Assembly (NCBI GenBank): GCA_938075305.1
Contig: CALJGV010000014.1
Span: forward strand, 124,001-188,000
Source: an uncultured bacterium
GTDB lineage: Bacteria > Planctomycetota > UBA1135 > GCA-002686595
Direction: 5' to 3'
Length of the DNA: 64,000 bases
A program made the translations under genes and the position numbers. Of this stretch, positions 37,635-46,249 are shown one piece after another; within the stretch, counting starts at the first letter, position 1, and each line of letters starts with the position of its first letter. Under the pieces are notes generated by a model. That model searched no databases, was not told the DNA's origin, and saw only the letters and a program-made list of their open reading frames with translations.

Positions 37635-38135
37635 ATGGCTGGCTTCAAGAAGCTGGGCGCGAAGGGCAACGTGGTTCACCACGTCGTCCTCCCTGGCCCG
37701 ACTCGCCGAGCGGGTGCCCGTCGCACGGGCGCCTCGGGAGGCGGTCTGCGCGGATTGAACTTGGAGCGGGCCCGCCAGGGTTCCCCCGTGATTCAGCCGC
37801 CGTCCGACCCTGCGGAGCCCGCAGCGGCACGACGGGCGACGCCCACGGGCGCGCCCGAGGCGCAGAGCCCGGCGGAGACCCGGCAGAGCAAGCGCGAAAC
37901 CGAACTCCTGCAGCGCCGCATCGACAAGCTCTCCCGGCTCCTCACGGAGCAGGAGGAGCAGATCCGCAGCCTTGCCGACCGCGATCAGGCCTCGGAGACC
38001 GAAGCGCGCTTCTACGACGCTGTGAAGCCCCAGCTGCCTGCGACCCCTCCGGACGAGAAGCGGCGCGCCTTCATGTCCCAGTTGTTCCAGGCCAACCTGG
38101 AACTCCGGGAAAGCGTCAACAAGTCCGGCTCCTGA
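37635..38135 (+). CDS. Coiled-coil protein sharing a C-terminal module with the degenerate-GGDEF protein
   Basis: This 166-residue basic protein has an Arg/Gly/Pro-rich, probably disordered N-terminus (about 1-80) and a helical C-terminus. The last 80 residues contain RRIDKLSRLLTEQEEQIRSL, a Tyr-x-x-V segment and MSQLFQANLELRES. This closely matches the C-terminus of the protein encoded at 45215-46249 (RRIEKLTRSL, YREV, MGEIFKANLDLQS). GAGGGA lies four bases before the ATG at 37635; an upstream GTG at 37578 is an alternative. The MamK-like actin gene follows after 142 bases on the same strand. I recognise no named family. A filament adaptor or localisation factor is an inference. Confidence 0.6.
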   Translation: MAGFKKLGAKGNVVHHVVLPGPTRRAGARRTGASGGGLRGLNLERARQGSPVIQPPSDPAEPAAARRATPTGAPEAQSPAETRQSKRETELLQRRIDKLSRLLTEQEEQIRSLADRDQASETEARFYDAVKPQLPATPPDEKRRAFMSQLFQANLELRESVNKSGS

Positions 38136-38277: not shown

Positions 38278-39345
38278 ATGACGAACATCCAGACTGACGA
38301 CACCGAAGGGACCGGCAAGGACCGCGGCGTCCTCTATGTGGGCATCGACCTCGGCACCTCGCGCACCTCGGTGACCGCGAGTAACGGCGTCCGCGAGACC
38401 ATCGAGTCGTTCGTGGGCTACCCCAAGGACCCGGTGGCGATGAAGCTTCTCAAGAAGGAGGTGCTCTTCGGCGCCGAGGCCCGCGAGAAGCGCCTCTCGC
38501 TCAACCTCCACCGGCCCCTCGAGCACGGCGTGCTCAAGTTCAACGCGGACGGCTCTGAGAACCAGGACTCGCGCCGCGCGGCGATGGACCTCGTGAAGGA
38601 GATCGTGCGGCTCTCGAAGCCGCGCAAGGACGAGCTCGTATACGCCGTCATCGGGGTCCCCGCCCAGGCGCAGATCAACAACAAGGACGCCATCCTTCAG
38701 GCCGCGCGGGAGTCCGTGGACTCCGTGATGCTCTGCTCGGAGCCCTTCTCCGTCGCCTACGGGCTGGACATGCTCGAGGACGTGCTGGTGATCGACATCG
38801 GCGCGGGCACAGTCGACCTCTGCCGGATGCACGGCACCATGCCGGAGGAGTCCGACCAGATCACCATGAACACCGCGGGCGACTACGTGGACGACGAGCT
38901 CGGCAAGGAGATCGCCGCCGCCTTCCCCCAGGCGCAGTTCACCAAGCAGATGATCAAGGCGATCAAGGAGCGCCACAGCACGGTCGACGTGAACACCGAG
39001 AAGATCACGACCGAGCTCCCCGTGGAGGGTAAGCCCACCGAGTTCGAGATCACCGAGCAGGTGCGCACCGCGTGCCAGCGCATCGTCCCGCCCATCGTCG
39101 AGGGCCTCGGCAAGCTGATCAGCACCTTCGACCCCGAGTTCCAGGACAAGCTCAAGGGGCGCGTCCTGCTGGCCGGTGGCGGCAGCCAGATCCGCGGGCT
39201 GGACCGCGCCATCTCCGAGGAGATGCAGCGCACCCTCGGCGGCGGCAACGTGATCCGCATCGAGGAGCCCATGTACGGCGGCGCCAACGGCGCGCTGAAG
39301 ATCGCGCACGACATGCCCGAGGAGTACTGGGAGCAGCTCAAGTGA
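38278..39345 (+). CDS. MamK-like bacterial actin
   Basis: This 355-residue actin-fold ATPase is closest in my recollection to MamK, the filament that aligns magnetosomes, rather than MreB. It has phosphate-1 VGIDLGTSRT (21-30), a VGYPKD segment, VIGVPAQA, Glu155 in CSEPFSVAYGLDML, phosphate-2 VIDIGAGTVDL (171-181), then GTMPEESDQITMNTAGDYVDDEL, and the adenosine motif LLAGGGSQIRG (297-307). The C-terminus MPEEYWEQLK is also MamK-like. Length fits (about 350). It should form cytoplasmic filaments. No mam genes are seen. Its stop overlaps the start of the metalloprotease gene (GTGA). The ATG at 38278 gives family length. Confidence 0.82.
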   Translation: MTNIQTDDTEGTGKDRGVLYVGIDLGTSRTSVTASNGVRETIESFVGYPKDPVAMKLLKKEVLFGAEAREKRLSLNLHRPLEHGVLKFNADGSENQDSRRAAMDLVKEIVRLSKPRKDELVYAVIGVPAQAQINNKDAILQAARESVDSVMLCSEPFSVAYGLDMLEDVLVIDIGAGTVDLCRMHGTMPEESDQITMNTAGDYVDDELGKEIAAAFPQAQFTKQMIKAIKERHSTVDVNTEKITTELPVEGKPTEFEITEQVRTACQRIVPPIVEGLGKLISTFDPEFQDKLKGRVLLAGGGSQIRGLDRAISEEMQRTLGGGNVIRIEEPMYGGANGALKIAHDMPEEYWEQLK

Positions 39346-40523
39346 GCGACCCCGGACCTCCGGAGCAGCAGGCGGCCGGCGATCCCGAAGGGGGGCGCCG
39401 GCCGCCGCTCCATTCACGGCTCCTGGTGCGGTGGGCCGTGGCCCTCACGCCCTGGGCCGCGGCGCTCCTGTGCGTGGCCGTCGCCCGGGCGGGCCCCGGG
39501 TTGGTCGAGGCGTACTTTGCGCGCGGCGTCTACCCGAGGGTCGCGGGCCTCATCGGGGAGGCCGCCCGGGGGTGGTCAGCTCTGACAGGCGCCCCACGGC
39601 GCGCCGGTCGCTTCCTGTCCCTGTCGGAGGTGGGGATCCTCGTGGTGGCCGTGGCCCTCTGCTGGCTCGTGCGCCGGGGCTGGCGCCGTGGTGGTGCCGG
39701 CGCGGCGCTCCGGCGCGGGCTCGCGGCGAGCGGCGGTGGGGCGCTCCTGTTCCTGCTCCTCTGGGGCCTCAACTACTCGAGGCTCCCGCTGGCGGCCACC
39801 CTGGACATGGAGCCCGCTGGCGCCTCGGCCTCGGAGCTCGACCGGCTCGCCGGAGCCTTGGAGGGCCAGCTCCAGCCCTACCTCGCCGCGCCAGGCTCCC
39901 TCGGGGCGCTCGACCCAGGGGCCGCGCTGGAGCTGGCCGCGGCGTCCTGGCGGGAGGCCCTCGGACGCGAGCCCGCGCTCGGAGCCGGCTCCGGGGTCCT
40001 CGTTCGGCCAGCCCTCTCGGGCGCCATCGTGGGGGCCGGCATCAGCGGCATCTTCAGCCCCTTCACCCAGGAGGCTCACGTGGCCGCGCATCTGCCCGTA
40101 CCGGACCTCCTGTTCACCGCGTGCCACGAGCTGGCCCACGCGCAGGGCTGGGCGCGGGAGGACGAGGCCAACTACCTGGCGTGGCGTGTGGGAAGCCGGT
40201 CCTCCAGCGCCGAGGTGCGGTCCGCGGCGCGGCTCCTCGCGCTCGGACACGTGCTCGGCGCGCTGGGGCGCGCGGACCGGGAGCGTCTCGCGGCTCGGAT
40301 CGACCAGCTGGACCCTCGGATTCGGTCCGCCATGGAGGAGCGTGCGCGATTCTGGGACCGAGAGCGGTCTCCCGCGGCGAGCCGCGCGGCCTCGGCGGTG
40401 AACGACGTCTACCTGCGGGCCCAGGGCCAGGAGGGGGTGGCCTCCTACGGGCGGATGGTGGACTTGCTCGCCGCTGAGTGGCGAGCGGCCGGCGAGCGGC
40501 TTCCCGGCGGAGATCCACGCTGA
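39342..40523 (+). CDS. DUF3810-type membrane protein with HExxH metalloprotease motif
   Basis: This is a 393-residue protein with three N-terminal hydrophobic segments (about 30-52, 95-112 and 130-145), then WGLNYSRLPL, which is characteristic of DUF3810, and a soluble domain. The domain carries a zinc-protease motif H262-E-L-A-H266 followed by Glu275 in REDEANYLAW, consistent with a gluzincin-like active site. Activity is not established for this family as far as I know. Start GTG at 39342 overlaps the stop of the MamK-like gene, suggesting coupled synthesis. Substrate unknown. Confidence 0.78.
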   Translation: MSDPGPPEQQAAGDPEGGRRPPLHSRLLVRWAVALTPWAAALLCVAVARAGPGLVEAYFARGVYPRVAGLIGEAARGWSALTGAPRRAGRFLSLSEVGILVVAVALCWLVRRGWRRGGAGAALRRGLAASGGGALLFLLLWGLNYSRLPLAATLDMEPAGASASELDRLAGALEGQLQPYLAAPGSLGALDPGAALELAAASWREALGREPALGAGSGVLVRPALSGAIVGAGISGIFSPFTQEAHVAAHLPVPDLLFTACHELAHAQGWAREDEANYLAWRVGSRSSSAEVRSAARLLALGHVLGALGRADRERLAARIDQLDPRIRSAMEERARFWDRERSPAASRAASAVNDVYLRAQGQEGVASYGRMVDLLAAEWRAAGERLPGGDPR

Positions 40524-44028: not shown

Positions 44029-45060
44029 ATGAAAGCCATCGTTCTCCGCGCCGACGCCAGCGCCTCCCAGGGCACGGGCCATGTCATGCGGTGCCTCGCC
44101 CTCGCGCTCGCGCTGCGCGAGCGTGGGGTCGCACCGGTCATGGCCTCGGCGGAGTGCCCGGGGGCGCTGGTGGAGCGGGTCGGCTCGGCCGGCGTGAGGT
44201 TCGTGCGGCTCGAAGAAGAGGTGGGGTCCTCCGAGGATGCGGCGGCGACGCTTCGGATCGCGGGCGAGGAGGGGGCCGAATGGGTGCTGACCGATGGTTA
44301 CCGCTTCGGCCTCGATTATCAGCGGGCCCTGCGCGAGGGCGGCGTGAGGCTCGGGCTCATCGACGACTTCGCGCACCTGGACCGCTACGAGGCGGACCTC
44401 CTCTTGAACCAGAACAGCCATGCCCGCGAGCAGGACTACCCGGGCGTGGAGCGGCTGCTCCTCGGGCCGAGGTACGCCTTGCTCCGGCCAGAGTTCGTCC
44501 GTGCGCTCGGTGAGCGGACCGTCGAGGCCCGGGGAGGTCGGGCGGACCATCTCCTTGTGACCATGGGGGGCAGCGATCCTGGCAACGCCACCACCCGGAT
44601 CATCGAGGCGCTGTGCGAGCTCCGCGACGGACCGTCGGAGACGAGGGTGATCGTGGGCGCAGCGAATCCCCACCGGTCGGCGGTGGACGCGGCGGCGTCG
44701 AGGCTCTCGGGCTGCTGCGTGCTGGACCCGGTCTCCGACATGGTCCCCATGCTGGAGTGGGCTGACCTCGCGGTCTGCGCGGGAGGGAGCACCCTCTGGG
44801 AGATGGGCGCCTTCGGGGTTCCTGTGGCCTGCGTGATCCTGGCGCCGAACCAGGCCCCGATCGTCGCGGACCTCGAGCGCCGCGGGATGGTCTGCAATCT
44901 GGGGTGGGACCGGGACCTGGAGGCGGGGAGCTGCTCCGCGTCCCTCGAGGCCCTGCTGGAGGATGGCGACCTCCGGGGGCGGATGAGCGCAGTGGGGAGC
45001 GGGCTGGTGGACGGCGACGGCGCCGCACGGGTGGCTGCCGCGCTCGCCGGGGGCAGCTAG
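44029..45060 (+). CDS. pseG: PseG-like UDP-sugar hydrolase of pseudaminic acid synthesis
   Basis: This is a 343-residue GT-B fold protein matching PseG, which removes UDP from UDP-2,4-diacetamido-2,4,6-trideoxy-L-altrose on the way to pseudaminic acid. The N-terminal active-site motif GTGHVMRCLAL is at residues 15-25 (His18 at the catalytic position). LIDDFAHLDRYEADLLLNQN, LLGPRYALLRPEF and LLVTMGGSDPGNAT are all characteristic. The other pse genes (pseB, C, H, I, F) are not in the window. Pseudaminic acid often decorates flagellins or surface polysaccharides. The next gene is the degenerate-GGDEF protein. Confidence 0.87.
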   Translation: MKAIVLRADASASQGTGHVMRCLALALALRERGVAPVMASAECPGALVERVGSAGVRFVRLEEEVGSSEDAAATLRIAGEEGAEWVLTDGYRFGLDYQRALREGGVRLGLIDDFAHLDRYEADLLLNQNSHAREQDYPGVERLLLGPRYALLRPEFVRALGERTVEARGGRADHLLVTMGGSDPGNATTRIIEALCELRDGPSETRVIVGAANPHRSAVDAAASRLSGCCVLDPVSDMVPMLEWADLAVCAGGSTLWEMGAFGVPVACVILAPNQAPIVADLERRGMVCNLGWDRDLEAGSCSASLEALLEDGDLRGRMSAVGSGLVDGDGAARVAAALAGGS

Positions 45061-45214: not shown

Positions 45215-46249
45215 ATGCCGAACCCTGGAACGCTGAGCTTCAATCCGAGCGGCAAGCCGCTCTTCACGGACGACGAGGTCCGGTCGCTGATGCAGATCGA
45301 GTTCGATCGGGCGCGGCGCTACGACTACCCCGTAGCGTGCCTCCTGATCGAGGTGGATCGGCTCGTGGACATCCAGACCATGCACGGCTACGAGGCCAGG
45401 GGCACGATCCTCCAGGCCTTCGTCGAGCTGCTGCAGGGCGAGACCCGCGCCGGGGACCTGTTGGGGACGGTCGTGGATGACCGGCTCATGGTCCTCATCC
45501 CGCACACCATGCCTGCCGCCGCTCGCGCCATCAGCGAGCGGGTGCTCAGGGGTGCCCGGGAAATGCAGTTCAGGGTCGGCGGCAAGTCGATCCGCGTCAG
45601 CGCCTCGATCGGGGTCGCCCACAACCAGGACGAGGCCGCGACCTCCGTGGCGACCCTCGAGCGCGTGGCGGAGGAGGGACTCTCGGTCGCCATCGCGAGC
45701 GGTGGAGGCCAGGTCGTGCAGACCGAGCTCTACCAGCTCTACGAGAAGGAGCCCGTGCCCCCGGCCCCGCCGGCCGGCGATGTGGCAGAGCTCCTGGCCC
45801 GGGCCGAGCGCATGGGCTATCGCGAGCGCCTGGAGGGTCTGGTGGCCGAGGGCGCTCCGCTGGAGAAGGCGGCGGATGAGATCGCTGGGGAGGTCATCCA
45901 GCGGGCCGTGCAGCAGGAGCGCGAACGGTGGTCCCGTGACCTCGAGATGGCCAACGCTCGCATCGAGGCCATGTCGACCTCCCTCGAGCAGGGGGGAGAT
46001 CGGGCCGGTCTCGAGCGCAGCCTGCTCCAGCTCAATCGTCGGATCGAGAAGCTCACCCGATCCCTGGAAACCACCGAGGCAGAGGTCGCGCGGCTGCGCT
46101 CTGCGGGCGTCGAGGACGCCGGTGTGGCCTCCGTCTACCGCGAGGTCCAGGGCCTCGACAGCGGCGAGAACCGCGCGGACCTGAAGCGTGAGCTCATGGG
46201 CGAGATCTTCAAGGCGAACCTCGACCTGCAGTCCAGGCGCAGCGCCTGA
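45215..46249 (+). CDS. Degenerate GGDEF-domain protein with coiled coil and shared C-terminal module
   Basis: This is a 344-residue cytoplasmic protein. Residues 15-175 resemble a GGDEF domain (DEVRSLMQIEFDRARRYDYPVACLLIEVD, VSASIGVAHNQDEA), but the signature is VDDRL at about 87-91 in place of GGDEF, so cyclic-di-GMP synthesis is unlikely. Residues about 190-300 form a coiled coil. The last 80 residues (RRIEKLTRSL to MGEIFKANLDLQS) match the C-terminus of the protein encoded at 37635-38135. It probably senses or scaffolds rather than signals by catalysis. A very strong hairpin follows its stop. Confidence 0.75.
   Translation: MPNPGTLSFNPSGKPLFTDDEVRSLMQIEFDRARRYDYPVACLLIEVDRLVDIQTMHGYEARGTILQAFVELLQGETRAGDLLGTVVDDRLMVLIPHTMPAAARAISERVLRGAREMQFRVGGKSIRVSASIGVAHNQDEAATSVATLERVAEEGLSVAIASGGGQVVQTELYQLYEKEPVPPAPPAGDVAELLARAERMGYRERLEGLVAEGAPLEKAADEIAGEVIQRAVQQERERWSRDLEMANARIEAMSTSLEQGGDRAGLERSLLQLNRRIEKLTRSLETTEAEVARLRSAGVEDAGVASVYREVQGLDSGENRADLKRELMGEIFKANLDLQSRRSA

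Follow-up and report, generated by a model that had tools for sequence, protein, structure and literature searches.

A C-terminal tail carried by exchangeable heads accompanies a MamK-like actin in Planctomycetota and is a candidate docking module for its filament

The window, the whole 64,000-nucleotide stretch of planctomycete DNA analysed here, encodes a MamK-like actin and two proteins that share a C-terminal module, hereafter called the tail. As the tail was found only in actin-bearing genomes of the phylum and usually adjoins the actin gene, it is probably a docking handle for the filament, and we consider it about 65% likely that it is the docking module of a modular adaptor family for the MamK-like filament of non-model Planctomycetota. 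A functional tie between the tail and the actin is very likely, because the tail is restricted to actin genomes, lies adjacent to the actin gene and is kept while the heads of the proteins are exchanged. No more than such a tie follows from co-occurrence and adjacency; beyond it, we infer that the tail probably binds the filament directly. The first-pass annotation had proposed a tag for binding to, or localisation at, a single partner, perhaps the filament, and the specificity of the tail profile, the actin-only distribution and the adjacency lend support to this proposal.

The actin gene (38278..39345, + strand) encodes a MamK-family actin-like protein of 355 aa. It matched the NCBIfam MamK model NF040964 over residues 19-354 with 427.5 bits (cut-off 400), whereas its score on the BeeR model was 200.6 (cut-off 530), and the protein was filed with MamK on the basis of these values. 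The best solved relatives were chains titled 'Actin-like ATPase' (5ljw, 5jyg and 5ljv), which we take to be MamK entries. BeeR, from Verrucomicrobiota, is a MamK-related actin of non-magnetotactic bacteria (PMC11929497); the window actin is likewise MamK-related but, unlike BeeR, lies under the BeeR cut-off and over the MamK cut-off. The window genes that were scanned around the actin proved unrelated and included no magnetosome gene, and the search for the magnetochrome family PF18509 gave no match anywhere, the controls likewise remaining without a match. A DUF3810 protein (39072-40523) is encoded directly 3′ of the actin, as it is in five relatives from the same genus (loci L004, L005, L006, L008 and L153).

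The short tail protein (37635..38135, + strand, 166 aa) is encoded directly 5′ of the actin gene and consists of a basic N-terminal stretch, a low-complexity linker and a divergent copy of the tail (37896..38132, + strand) with the core motif FMSQLFQANLELR (38070..38108, + strand); its reading frame opens at GTG 37578. The second protein (45215..46249, + strand, 344 aa) combines a degenerate GGDEF domain and a coiled coil with the canonical copy of the tail (46019..46246, + strand), which comprises a helix, a loop with GVASVYREVQGL and a terminal helix containing the core motif LMGEIFKANLDLQ (46193..46231, + strand). A single BLASTP comparison aligned residues 273-339 of the 45215 protein with residues 92-158 of the 37635 protein (20/67 identical, E 2e-05), and the local alignment of the two tails scored 73, whereas none of 5000 shuffles exceeded 58. 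A profile built from 115 tails, all from outside the window's genus, matched only these two among the 814 stop-to-stop frames of the window, with E 2e-28 for the 45215 protein and 6e-16 for the 37635 protein, the next best frame having E 1.4. Judged by their sequences, the two tails are homologous, and the first-pass annotation had correctly placed a shared C-terminal module in both products, one copy 142 bases 5′ of the MamK-like gene (142 bp as measured up to the actin start) and the other about 6 kb 3′ of it (the frame of the GGDEF-tail gene starts 5.9 kb past the actin stop). The 37635 tail is without the conserved middle D-x-G-x-A-S-x-Y-x-x-V-Q-G-L, which is present in the 45215 protein and nearly all relatives. 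A third tail is encoded on another contig of the same genome (C18:3812-4027), at the C-terminus of a protein of about 500 aa (L002:1498-3012, − strand; genome G000); this protein has the helical type of head that occurs phylum-wide, and no actin gene adjoins it.

The tail is about 75 residues long and conserved in planctomycetes. Among the 115 tails, R, K, G, S, Q-G, F and N are conserved at 93-100%, and within the F-x-A-N-L part F reaches 96%, N 100% and the last L 90%. A generic coiled coil has no conserved non-heptad residues, which these tails do have; the profile returned a specific planctomycete-wide module and not the generic coiled coils lacking F-x-A-N-L that the first-pass annotation had named as the outcome speaking against its proposal. 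Searches of Pfam and NCBIfam returned GGDEF families and scattered coiled-coil-type matches, none of them naming the tail, and the comparison of the tail profile with the PDB gave no convincing relative (best E 0.07).

The core of the terminal helix follows the pattern PhiPhixxPhiPhixxNxxLR. In 20 actin loci without a profile match, PhiPhixxPhiPhixxN was found at or near the end of the upstream gene in 11, mostly followed by xxLR. The strict pattern, drawn up after reading these 11 defining loci, was present in 20 of 40 further loci (17 in family f23 and one each in f26, f31 and f86), and by eye six more loci in f23, f26, f64 and f68 deviate from it by about one letter. Its background was 19 matches in 690 ORFs; the true value is lower, since the ORF set includes the tail proteins of 21 loci. 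The core pattern was not observed in genes adjoining the actin in f30, f55, f12, f28, f69 and f88; in f30 (L125, L126 and L127) the MamK-like gene stands without a recognisable adjoining tail gene. In one locus (L140:2159-2893, reverse-complement coordinates) the core motif occurs twice at the C-terminus of the upstream protein, as MLRENVALR and LVNQNLGLRR, and this pair might resemble a multivalent binding tail.

The search for other domains carrying the tail, raised by the first-pass annotation, revealed all-helical, degenerate GGDEF and short basic heads. When the tail was stripped, 141 distinct tail proteins were classified into 66 with a helical head (consensus LADAVRRRARRTTLDELKKRGVRRVRVLSLDRIARLIEKAV...), 53 with a degenerate GGDEF domain, 17 of the short type, in which a basic N-terminal stretch takes the place of a head domain, and five others. 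The profiles of the helical and GGDEF types align over the C-terminal ~148 columns only (probability 100, E 1e-39), which indicates one tail with exchanged heads. On the tree of 89 actins paired with an upstream tail gene, the head type changed 10 times, compared with 38 in shuffles that do not correct for relatedness, none of which was as low. The window actin belongs to a clade of 14 actins, 12 of which have the short form as their upstream partner. For the helical head, a fold search with one such protein stayed above E 0.001 throughout (best 0.29), and the head was left unnamed. PilZ-like heads, suspected in f23 from the N-termini, were not supported by Pfam.

The GGDEF-fold domain of the 45215 protein covers residues 26-161 (45290..45697, + strand; Pfam GGDEF 49 bits). 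The AlphaFold model has a mean pLDDT of 75.5, which is near 90 over this domain and low in the linkers and the tail loop, and the modelled domain superposes on solved isolated GGDEF domains with TM up to 0.90 by target length. The active site reads VDDRL where GG[DE]EF is expected, and the motif was kept in none of the 50 GGDEF-tail proteins, in agreement with the earlier prediction that the domain is inactive. The metal-binding Asp of the first strand is replaced by Glu in the window, and the six commonest residues at this position, which cover 35 of 38 aligned rows, do not include Asp. The residues of the inhibitory site for c-di-GMP (I-site), R78, D81 and R109, are retained in the window protein; R109 is the equivalent of the distal I-site Arg by PleD numbering. 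Across the 38 rows of an alignment limited to the better-aligned heads, R78 and D81 (RxxD) were found in 38/38 and R109 in 35/38, while in all 50 heads the I-site R was kept in 42 and D in 41, 8-9 having lost one. Whether the head senses c-di-GMP we regard, from these residues, as evenly balanced.

The co-occurrence of the tail with the MamK-like gene was analysed in a sample of 294 Planctomycetota genomes with an 18-tail profile and a sequence search for the actin; the collection covers one phylum, and most genomes are draft or metagenome assemblies. The tail was detected in 63 genomes, all 63 with the MamK-like actin; the 178 genomes that lack the actin gave no tail match (Fisher p 3e-32, uncorrected for phylogeny, and the genomes are not independent). 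This bears out the co-occurrence that the first-pass annotation had put forward for checking. In 57 of the 63, the tail ends at most 0.9 kb 5′ of the actin on the same strand. Among 151 genomes of the order, searched with a three-tail profile and an actin sequence query, 127 had the tail and 122 the actin: 121 had both, six the tail only, one the actin only and 23 neither. The single actin-only genome has its actin starting at the first base of a contig. One tail-only genome (G041) rests on a weak tail match (E 0.0017); in another (G137) the contig ends about 300 bases past the tail, so the actin may be unassembled.

The comparison of 20 neighbourhoods of 14-16 kb with a 17-kb stretch of the window showed only two gene families common to all 21, those of the tail protein and of the actin; other shared families are lineage-specific or are frames antisense to genes. 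The window's clustered tail copy in this set is the downstream GGDEF-tail gene, the divergent short copy being 5′ of the actin. A tail gene on either side of the actin is a feature of the window's genus: the five genus relatives named above have the GGDEF-tail gene 3′ and the short tail gene 5′ of the actin, and the same layout occurs in L150, from another genus of the window's family (f1). Directly 5′ of the GGDEF-tail gene, the window encodes PseG, a hydrolase of the pseudaminic-acid pathway (44029-45060; TIGR03590 204 bits, cut-off 153.55); this gene order was also found in L004, L005 and L006.

The neighbourhoods also bear on the possibility that the partner of the tail is a tyrosine autokinase of the exopolysaccharide BY-kinase type (TIGR01007 111 bits, cut-off 108), with the actin as an operon bystander. 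Its gene is present in 14 of the 16 loci outside f1, directly 5′ of the tail gene on the same strand in nine and nearby on the other strand in five, and in most families outside f1 it is as close a neighbour of the actin and the tail as these are of each other. However, it is missing from all five f1 neighbourhoods, the window included, where tail and actin still stand together. In the order-wide search f2-f8 gave close relatives of the kinase, whereas the copies in f1 were all distant and lay elsewhere in the genome; at E 1e-45 the window's genome had no match. We therefore hold this reading to be very unlikely. The tail might instead be an oligomerisation module through which tail proteins bind each other, the actin being linked via one scaffold protein only. 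That the first tail helix extends the coiled coil and that the window genome has three tail proteins would fit such a role, but in families f2-f8 each genome encodes just one tail protein (and, apart from a few exceptions, one actin), so hetero-oligomerisation is not the general role of the tail. In addition, a plain coiled coil would not show a pattern such as the R, K, G, S, Q-G and N, all of them invariant or close to it, and what is left of the tail in the reduced copies is the terminal helix alone; oligomerisation as the main function thus appears unlikely.

The terminal helix is predicted to be amphipathic and is followed by basic residues, resembling membrane-targeting helices, so the tail could bind the membrane or another conserved cell component, with only an indirect association with the filament. 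This is a reading that we consider quite unlikely, because the tail is confined to actin-bearing genomes and, with the nearly invariant asparagine and phenylalanine inside the helix, exceeds what a membrane helix needs.

With docking to the filament as the preferred reading, the closest working analogue is found in magnetotactic Alphaproteobacteria. A MamJ-like gene (Mg-1g50) lies directly 5′ of mamK-II in strain MV-1, as mamJ does in magnetospirilla, and MamK adaptors other than MamJ have reportedly escaped attention in magnetotactic bacteria (PMC10653835). Like the genes of these cargo-to-MamK adaptors, the tail genes lie directly 5′ of a MamK-family gene (57/63 genomes); unlike MamJ, which is acidic and has a repeat region, the tail proteins form coiled coils and end in a conserved helix. 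On the best reading by analogy, they are MamJ-like in role and gene position. The coiled-coil proteins Mad20, Mad23, Mad25 and Mad26 of Desulfovibrio magneticus work with MamK and Mad28, and two-hybrid interactions are reported for them (PMC12748827); the tail proteins resemble this description in being coiled coils encoded beside a MamK-family actin. The 45215 protein resembles degenerate GGDEF receptors of c-di-GMP of the I-site type in its fold, in the loss of the catalytic motif and in the kept RxxD, and differs from them in that its head is joined to a tail that accompanies an actin gene; this combination was not found in the parts of the open-access literature that were available.

In the proposed mechanism, the terminal amphipathic helix, with LMGEIFKANLDLQ as its core in the 45215 protein, would bind the filament or the monomer, while the coiled coil and the variable head would connect the filament to cargo or signals. 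In f1 a GGDEF fold, catalytically dead but with the I-site residues retained, has taken the place of the head, and, as these residues are kept and catalysis is lost, the 45215 protein would most likely couple c-di-GMP to the position or dynamics of the filament; some f1 adaptors are probably c-di-GMP-responsive. The short 37635 protein may be a reduced adaptor or a competitor for the same site.

No role or partner was found in the open-access literature searched for MamK-family actins of non-magnetotactic planctomycetes. The tail proteins provide a candidate partner family in nearly every actin-bearing genome of the order, and the terminal helix a compact candidate binding motif that is testable with two purified proteins; a tail-GFP fusion is a possible probe for the planctomycete cytoskeleton. 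The f1 heads add a predicted link of c-di-GMP to an actin filament. More tentatively, there could be a widespread planctomycete cytoskeleton with a MamK-like filament as its platform and a single short C-terminal helix as a portable filament-binding tag moved in evolution between heads, including that of an enzyme-dead c-di-GMP receptor. If true, this would be a bacterial actin under second-messenger control outside magnetosomes.
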